Assembly (NCBI RefSeq): GCF_023702675.1
Contig: NZ_CP098478.1
Span: 558,001-622,000 of the forward strand
Source of the DNA: Acinetobacter sp. C26M
GTDB lineage: Bacteria; Pseudomonadota; Gammaproteobacteria; Pseudomonadales; Moraxellaceae
Direction of reading: 5' to 3'
DNA: 64,000 nt
Positions 31,168 to 32,539 of this stretch are shown here, piece by piece. Under the pieces are notes generated by a model that saw only the letters and a list, made by a program, of their open reading frames with translations, was not told the DNA's origin and did not search any database. Both the position numbers and the translations under genes were made by a program. The stretch's first letter is position 1. Each line of letters begins with the position of its first letter.

Positions 31168-32184
31168 ATGCAAATTTTTTACGATAAAGACTGTGACTTA
31201 TCAATCATCCAAGGCAAGAAAGTTGCAATCATTGGTTATGGTTCACAAGGCCATGCTCATGCACTTAACTTGAAAGACTCTGGCGTAGACGTAACTGTTG
31301 GTTTACGTGCTGGTTCTACTTCTTGGAAAAAAGCTGAAAACTCAGGCCTTAAAGTTTCTGAAGTTCCAGCTGCTGTTGCTCAAGCTGACTTAGTCATGAT
31401 TTTGACTCCAGATGAATTCCAATCTCAACTTTATCGTGACGTGATTGAACCAAACATCAAAGAAGGTGCAACTTTAGCATTTGCTCATGGTTTCTCTATT
31501 CTTTATAACCAAGTTGTTCCACGTAAAGACTTAGACGTAATCATGGTTGCACCTAAAGCACCTGGTCACACTGTACGTTCTGAATACCAACGTGGTTCAG
31601 GTGTTCCTGACTTAATCGCGATCCATCAAGATGCTTCTGGTAATGCACGTAACGTTGCACTTTCTTATGCTTCAGGCGTAGGCGGTGGTCGTACAGGTAT
31701 CATCGAGACTTCTTTCCGTGAAGAAACTGAAACTGACTTATTCGGTGAGCAAGCAGTTCTTTGTGGTGGTGCTGTTGAATTGGTTAAAATGGGCTTCGAA
31801 ACTTTGGTTGAAGCTGGTTATGCACCAGAAATGGCTTACTTCGAATGCTTACATGAACTTAAGTTAATCGTTGACTTGATGTTCGAAGGCGGTATCGCTG
31901 ACATGAACTACTCAGTTTCTAACAATGCTGAGTACGGTGAGTATGTAACAGGTACTGAAGTGATCAACGAACAATCTCGCGAAGCAATGCGTAATGCATT
32001 GAAACGTATTCAGTCTGGTGAATATGCGAAGATGTTCATCCAAGAAGGTGCATTGAACTATCCATCAATGACTGCTCGTCGTCGTCAAAACGCAGCGCAT
32101 GGTATCGAAGTAACAGGTAATAAATTACGTGCGATGATGCCTTGGATTCAAGCGAACAAGATTGTTGATAAAGAGAAAAACTAA
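31168..32184 (+). CDS. ilvC: Ketol-acid reductoisomerase (NADP+)
   Basis: 338 residues, class I length. The Rossmann motif [17 protein letters not shown] and the following Arg/Ser residues ([10 protein letters not shown]) indicate NADPH. The catalytic acidic residues lie in [12 protein letters not shown] and the C-terminal [13 protein letters not shown]. It rearranges and reduces 2-acetolactate to 2,3-dihydroxyisovalerate in branched-chain amino acid synthesis. GGAG precedes the ATG. The final 44 bp of the gene recur twice downstream (see repeats at 32299 and 32499). Confidence 0.97.
32141..32184 (+). repeat. ilvC 3'-end repeat, copy 1 (the true gene end)
   Basis: The last 44 bp of ilvC, encoding [13 protein letters not shown] and the stop codon. 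This is the reference for the two downstream copies. Confidence 0.85.
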
Positions 32185-32214
32185 TTTCTCGAATCAATTG
32201 ATTTGAACGCGAAG

Positions 32215-32240
32215 ACCCACTCTATTTGAGTGGGTTTTTT
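32215..32240 (+). terminator. Terminator of ilvC
   Basis: An 8-bp stem (ACCCACTC / GAGTGGGT) with a 5-nt loop and a T run, 31 bp past the ilvC stop codon. Confidence 0.85.
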
Positions 32241-32261
32241 ATGTTTATCTTTACGTGCCTC

Positions 32262-32293
32262 AAAAAGATGAAAGCAGTGCTTTCATCTTTTTT
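32262..32293. terminator. Second, symmetric terminator hairpin
   Basis: A perfect 14-bp stem (AAAAAGATGAAAGC and its complement) with loop AGT. Runs of A and T at both ends allow function on either strand. Confidence 0.7.
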
Positions 32294-32298
32294 CGTAC

Positions 32299-32342
32299 CT
32301 TGGATTCAAGCGAACAAGATTGTAGATAAAGAGAAAAACTAA
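32299..32342 (+). repeat. ilvC 3'-end repeat, copy 2
   Basis: 44 bp identical to the end of ilvC except for one base, GTT to GTA, which keeps the valine codon. The stop codon is kept and is again followed by a terminator-like hairpin at 32361. No start or upstream coding sequence accompanies it. Confidence 0.85.
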
Positions 32343-32360
32343 GTTTTAGTTTAATTTTGA

Positions 32361-32389
32361 AAAGCCCTTGTTTGTACAGGGGCTTTTTT
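32361..32389 (+). terminator. Terminator after ilvC tail copy 2
   Basis: AAAGCCC pairs with GGGCTTT, with weaker pairs inside (CTTG / CAGG), and the hairpin is followed by a T run. Confidence 0.7.
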
Positions 32390-32498
32390 ATTGGGAATTC
32401 CTGGAGCTGCGTGTGTTAGCGAAGCATAGCTTCACTCTTAGGCAGGGGTCTTGCGAAGCGATGCTTCTCATACTTTTCTATTTCCCTGCTCATACTCA

Positions 32499-32539
32499 GG
32501 ATTCAAGTGGACAAGATTGTAGATAAAGAGAAAAACTAA
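32499..32539 (+). repeat. ilvC 3'-end repeat, copy 3
   Basis: 41 bp matching the ilvC end with three differences. It shares GTAGAT and the AAGTTTTA after the stop with copy 2, so copies 2 and 3 are closer to each other than to copy 1. Two of the changes would replace Ala-Asn by Val-Asp. Confidence 0.8.

Follow-up and report, generated by a model that had tools for sequence, protein, structure and literature searches.

The region downstream of ilvC in Acinetobacter sp. C26M raises the question of how the end of a housekeeping gene comes to stand three times in tandem, and whether the extra copies are scars of mobile elements or products of exchange with related bacteria. We addressed this in a 64,000-nt stretch of contig NZ_CP098478.1 (hereafter the window, meaning this whole stretch), whose IlvC is 100% identical to the protein of an A. 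gyllenbergii locus (L039). Two further copies of the last 45 nt of ilvC lie downstream of the gene (Table 1), and in register the copies (32135-32190, 32293-32348, and 32490-32545) have 88-89% identity over 56 nt. In a genome-wide search with the gene end, the tail copies matched at E-values of 8e-16 and 3e-15 and no other tail of comparable strength was found in the whole genome, the remaining matches with E<0.01 being to the terminator part of the query. A preliminary description of the window had reported the last 44 nt of ilvC at 32299-32342 with one silent change, a third copy at 32499-32539 with three changes, and a terminator belonging to copy 2. All three observations were borne out: the silent change is GTT to GTA, the match of copy 3 starts at GGATTC (32499), and the terminator folds at -18.4 kcal/mol (z -5.2).

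That description made no mention of palindrome 1, which lies directly before copy 2 and folds at -19.1 kcal/mol (z -6.1 for 32249-32300), or of the TTACGTGC box. Inside ilvC this box sits just upstream of the gene's own tail, and the same or a similar box was seen by eye before many copies in other species. One reading of such a copy is an ilvC tail of ~60 nt with a hairpin in place of its middle part. The linker before copy 3 differs from, and is longer than, the stretch before copy 2; its type is also present in five other genomes (G032, G097, G099, G122, and G140), and its fold (32405-32496) is no better than that of shuffles (z -0.9). No convincing terminator was found 3' of copy 3, where the fold matches shuffles.

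Table 1. Features of the ilvC gene end and downstream region, in window coordinates.
Feature	Position	Strand	Basis or remark
ilvC (ketol-acid reductoisomerase)	31168..32184	+	ORF, 338 aa; tail source and homology anchor
Tail copy 1, live ilvC end (CCTTGG...TAA)	32140..32184	+	Sequence comparison
Terminator 1 (12-bp stem, T run)	32211..32241	+	Fold z -6.7 for 32185-32243
Left box TTACGTGC	32251..32258	+	Same letters inside ilvC at 32125-32132
Palindrome 1 (15-bp perfect arms, 1-nt centre, T run)	32262..32292	+	Inverted-repeat search, fold
Tail copy 2, differing from ilvC by one silent change	32298..32342	+	Sequence comparison and genome search
Terminator 2	32359..32389	+	Fold z -5.2 for 32343-32392
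Linker 2 (GTTAGCGAAGC...CCCTGCTCATA type)	32406..32494	+	Type shared with other genomes
Tail copy 3	32495..32539	+	Homologous from 32499; three changes, two amino-acid changing
Sequence 3' of copy 3 (decayed terminator at most)	32540..32590	+	z -0.3 vs shuffles

Survey of ilvC tails across Acinetobacter

We searched 175 Acinetobacter genomes with the gene end and obtained matches in 169. The survey comprised 173 ilvC loci, namely the window and 172 stretches from 171 other genomes (G080 gave two), and omitted G117 and G152, which had no ilvC match, and G156, which had a truncated match. Up to 9 kb downstream of each gene was subjected to a position-weight scan (15 loci hold <9 kb and 6 hold <700 bp) at a threshold of 20 bits, the maximum in the reverse-strand control being 9.2 bits. 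Extra tails were identified in 83 of the 173 loci, with 108 copies altogether: one in 62 loci, two in 18, three in 2, and four in 1. The preliminary description had named the same three copies in all strains, without inserted cargo, as a finding that would refute it; this was not seen, as the number of extra tails varies from 0 to 4. Every extra tail lies within 700 bp of the ilvC stop, and none was found 700-9000 bp downstream (173 loci, 15 of them shorter than 9 kb). The inter-tail distance ranges from 47 to 392 nt (median 113), and a terminator is found within 80 nt after 72/108 extra copies, relative to 158/172 gene ends and 6/172 shuffled sequences.

About 13 of the 90 loci with zero copies look by eye to hold decayed remnants (L125, L126, L152, L162, L178, L185, L189, L238, L247, L249, L260, L261, and L286), weakly so in L152, L162, and L189. 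Because of these remnants, 83/173 is probably a lower bound, and a regular-expression count of hairpin remnants, which returned zero in the same 90 loci, used too strict a pattern.

As a control we asked how often the ends of other genes recur, scoring a match of 36/45 within 1 kb after the gene for mechanically called ORFs of at least 150 aa on both strands. By this measure the ilvC end recurred in 66 of the 166 cases in which 1 kb of sequence follows the gene, and that of other ORFs in 1 of 1277. The lone recurring end among the 1277 belongs to an ORF in L285 that ends 948 nt after ilvC (43/45, 692 nt on), and is perhaps a partial tandem gene duplication. Outside the main survey, one of 63 loci mostly from other genera (L056-L118) has a copy, that of Alkanindiges (L056; 38/45, with a similar linker), and the best match in the other 62 was 28/45, L065 being an Acinetobacter contig that stops soon after the gene. 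The tail array is a real, genus-wide feature that in these tests was specific to ilvC. It is not described in the titles or opening parts of abstracts among the literature matches listed, a coverage outside which most subscription journals lie.

Several individual loci had features of their own. L201 (G114) carries a 7-nt microsatellite, TTTCTAA, of ~35 units (by eye) after the stop of an extra tail, in the space separating two tail copies. G080 has two full ilvC loci (L283 and L284) that share a contig and whose genes are identical, in an assembly marked as 9% contaminated. In L171 (G047) the sequence after the ilvC stop is unlike that of the other zero-copy loci read, and by eye there is no usual terminator in the first 80 nt after ilvC.

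Extra tails as probable former gene ends

We compared the codons of 102 of the 108 copies with those of the local gene, omitting six with a poor ungapped match. The comparison yielded 479 codon differences, 321 of them synonymous and 158 non-synonymous; the synonymous share expected for random changes is 17%, and that between genes is 91% (every fourth gene). The stop is kept in 86/102 copies, and 47/102 encode the exact peptide of some live ilvC end. As their differences from the local gene are mostly synonymous, most extra copies have the appearance of gene ends that were once live. Decay is evident in the 158 non-synonymous differences, and these count against the model of repeated import that we come to favor below. 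Decay of copies with distance from the gene is not well supported, with 42/118 differences being non-synonymous in second-or-later copies and 116/361 in first copies.

Divergence toward the 3' end of ilvC

The live gene was examined for traces of exchange in two sets of close pairs, within each of which pairs share loci and are not independent. The first set, 139 pairs picked on the first 600 nt of ilvC and hence a biased choice, had a mismatch of 0.019-0.022 in those 600 nt, rising to 0.032-0.042 over the following 330 nt and to 0.063-0.066 over the final 87. In the second, 129 pairs picked against this bias on nt 301-700 alone, mismatch was 0.009 over the first 45 nt, 0.022-0.023 across nt 301-700, and 0.061-0.066 over the final 87 nt (0.061 for the final 45), and 61/129 pairs had a 3' excess vs 2/129 with a 5' excess (log-likelihood gain over 5). 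No rise was found in the neighbouring ilvH, used as a control, in which mismatch falls toward the gene end, and distant pairs have no steady rise along ilvC. The segment 87-45 nt before the ilvC end is variable among distant pairs too (0.156), which covers part of the rise.

Non-redundant breakpoints, 19 from the first choice and 15 from the second, lie 60-568 nt before the stop. We infer that they mark imports of foreign ilvC ends, because a 45-nt downstream copy cannot convert the gene that far upstream. In a nearest-neighbour test the last 100 nt of ilvC were concordant in 42/170 cases vs 46-71/170 for six other 100-nt segments, making the discordance of the gene end only weakly special.

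Reassortment of modules between species

Inter-tail sequences were compared as modules, each a tail plus an inter-tail segment (~90-210 nt, the unit of the integron-like reading discussed below). L120 and the window share, letter for letter, a 158-nt unit containing copy 1, terminator 1, and palindrome 1, and its neighbours in the two loci differ. Twenty-two module pairs from different loci matched in length and were at least 95% identical; modules recur within this set, and the pairs are not independent. In a gapped check of the DNA after the next tail, 16 of the 22 were like random pairs (i.e., below the 95% point of random module pairs), 2 were related (L130/L144 and L240/L242), and 4 were identical, 3 of these coming from loci with identical ilvC. 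In 86 of 358 pairs of matching inter-tail segments, similarity equalled or exceeded that of the first 600 nt of ilvC, and modules of at least 95% identity are common to species whose ilvC cores are 87.5-93% identical. Similarity switches at varied points along the tail (3-36 for the first mismatch on the right, 0-39 for the last on the left), and two joints without copies, in L219 and L119, lie by eye at terminator T runs.

These data bear on another origin for the array, i.e., tandem duplication in one lineage by slippage or unequal crossing-over, followed by vertical descent and decay. Adjoining near-identical modules of the kind that it would produce are present in L122 and L134 (the same genomes as L013 and L025). 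Vertical descent is difficult to reconcile with near-identical modules in species with diverged ilvC cores, or with eight loci in which ilvC is at least 96% identical to that of the window over 800 nt and the extra copies nevertheless number 0, 0, 0, 1, 1, 1, 2, and 3, leading us to regard this origin as very doubtful.

Palindromes and the constant edge of the tails

An inverted-repeat score of at least 10 was obtained in the last 50 nt before 57/108 copies, vs 0/540 shuffles. The edge of the tails is largely constant, as 87/108 extra tails start directly after C[AG]T[AG] (genes have GATG at the same position in 173/173), and the palindromes vary, the best inverted repeats of the 108 copies having 77 distinct left arms. 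In 48 distinct centre-aligned hairpins, which cover 61/108 copies and were picked for pairing so that the value is biased upward, 88% of stem positions pair, vs 63% with right arms swapped; two-sided type changes in the stems number 33, vs 5-9 in slid versions. A tail can also stand directly 3' of a terminator without a hairpin, as in L128. The palindromes may persist because they act as terminators, or they may assist recombination.

Dispersed palindromic repeats (REP, MITE) were considered as a source and rejected, as the palindromes searched for in the window's own genome and in the 175 genomes were found at ilvC only. For each of two palindrome types there were 7 matches in 6 genomes, all at ilvC arrays. 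A loose box pattern had two further places in the genome that by eye are not such hairpins, relative to one match for the reversed-pattern control. The palindromes resemble REP/BIME in being short and intergenic; REP/BIME have many dispersed copies, whereas the types searched here are confined to ilvC.

Covariation of the hairpin stems, and the terminators that follow two-thirds of the extra copies within 80 nt, would be expected if the tail-hairpin units were a functional 3' RNA element, i.e., an sRNA or a stability or termination module under selection. We consider this quite unlikely, in that about half of the loci lack scored copies and the copies carry non-synonymous and stop-losing changes. 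In addition, no promoter-like sites were found near the window's tail copies, and the single Rfam match (BTnc231, 26.7 vs a gathering score of 80.4) is not credible.

The array has several features in common with integron cassette arrays, namely ordered modules, a constant edge, variable palindromes, and reassortment between species. In an integron-like reading the hairpin and tail would be a folded recombination site for a recombinase and the modules mobile terminator cassettes, consistent with their reassortment as units, the constant edge beside palindromes with varied but paired arms, and the restriction of both searched palindrome types to this locus. Among 20 array-bearing genomes tested, a full integron integrase is present in G153, and matches that are partial and fall short of the cut-off occur in G168, G131, and G065; against this, an integrase over the cut-off is absent from the other 19, that of the window (G000) included. 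The matches in G153, G168, G131, and G065 are located elsewhere in these genomes. The array also differs from integrons in that its modules lack the length to hold a gene (median inter-tail segment of 113 nt) and there is no fixed crossover point, the switch points being spread along the tail and import tracts reaching into ilvC. The attC core-box motif is RYYYAAC/GTTRRRY, and no such pair was seen by eye in the array. Overall we judge an integron-like system to be unlikely here.

A cassette array without an integrase has a small but real chance of being correct. Its module, comprising a gene end, a terminator, and a locus-specific hairpin, would spread between species because the hairpin-tail joint steers recombination, with the hairpin possibly folding in single-stranded DNA as it enters the cell, or causing replication to stall. 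If true, the module would be a minimal selfish unit parasitising a housekeeping gene end. Of the features of the array, it is the hairpin-tail joint that may yet prove to be new.

Integrative elements

Integrative elements target the 3' ends of genes such as tRNA, ssrA, dusA, and trmE. The dusA and trmE sites also appear in a literature listing. The preliminary description proposed that the ilvC tails were scars of this kind, the integrase of a phage, island, or ICE having targeted the ilvC 3' end and left tail copies from which the cargo was lost. The likeness is a duplicated gene end beside a terminator, in many copies preserving the frame through to the stop. Scars of this type are highly improbable at ilvC, and the hypothesis was rejected on four tests, of cargo, integrase motifs, carriers, and switch points. 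No cargo was found, and the scan of the 173 loci (15 of them shorter than 9 kb) detected no tail copy at a distance of 700-9000 bp. The description had also suggested looking for strains with a tyrosine recombinase between tail copies; none was found in a motif search of the ilvC loci, which can miss some, its matches being in two loci only and ~10.6 kb away. These two, L160 and L235, both have a tyrosine-recombinase-like ORF at this distance downstream of ilvC, far from the tails. No IMG/VR viral contig had an exact match to one degenerate tail pattern, and the 2 phage and 4 plasmid records that matched are ilvC-bearing Acinetobacter records. The former (INPHARED CAKLQF020000020.1 and CAKLQH020000017.1) are filed as phage and hold the ilvC end, and the latter (PLSDB NZ_CP104448.1, CP035931.1, NZ_CP077849.1, and NZ_CP064203.1) are plasmid records of 1.0-4.1 Mb with the ilvC end; all look like Acinetobacter chromosomal DNA. 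Finally, an element would cross over at a fixed point, whereas the switch points vary within the tail, import tracts extend 60-568 nt into ilvC, and several copies stand only 47-392 nt apart with no adjacent integrase motif. The preliminary description therefore stands in part: its scars of element integration were not upheld, and the exchange with diverged ilvC alleles that it offered as a second possibility is supported by the synonymous pattern, the 3' divergence gradient, and the reassortment of modules.

Proposed displacement of gene ends by repeated import

The tails are specific to one locus, vary in copy number, differ from their genes in a largely synonymous pattern, and reassort between species, and ilvC has a 3' gradient with variable breakpoints. 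Such a pattern is what homologous recombination would produce with its anchor in ilvC and a short joint opposite. We propose, with a probability of roughly 0.6, that the sequence downstream of the gene is a series of former ilvC 3' ends, displaced there by repeated interspecies import. Foreign Acinetobacter DNA would be taken up and pair with the strongly conserved ilvC, giving long homology on one side, and recombination on the other side would resolve in a 45-nt tail copy or at terminator T runs. Where an incoming second tail recombined with the resident gene end, the recipient would acquire the end of the donor's gene together with the terminator and hairpin that follow it, and the previous end of the recipient's gene would be left downstream as an extra copy; reversed pairings would lose modules, so that the array could grow, shrink, and reshuffle. 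The direction of each event and a decay of copies with distance from the gene are presumed in this model, as is a single origin of the hairpin-tail junction, which may have been kept because hairpins act as terminators. Import was probably by natural transformation, for which a ComEC-type protein is weak support, because the family is also present in 10/14 control genomes. A length of 45 nt is short for RecA recombination, and repeated import provides no explanation for the C[AG]T[AG] edge or for palindrome arms that vary jointly.

A precedent is the HFIR-type recombination reported for Acinetobacter baylyi, which combines one long homology anchor with a second joint that is short or illegitimate (PMC3240628). 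At ilvC there is likewise, on one side, a long stretch of homology in which breakpoints vary; on the other, the switch points within the 45-nt tail in the module pairs compared and, by eye, the T-run joints of L219 and L119 may be short joints of this kind. The ilvC events differ in that the second joint would usually fall in a homologous tail of 45 nt, they recur at one locus across the genus, and the resident end is kept as an extra copy, mostly behind a hairpin.

If gene ends have been displaced in this manner, the 0.1-0.7 kb downstream of ilvC would be a layered record of the foreign gene ends that each lineage has accepted, and interspecies recombination in Acinetobacter could be followed base by base at the ilvC end. 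Duplicated gene ends resembling integration scars can arise without a mobile element, a point of importance for automated island finding. The hairpins, which covary and are restricted to this locus, raise a testable question as to their role: are they terminators, recombination aids, or selfish modules?
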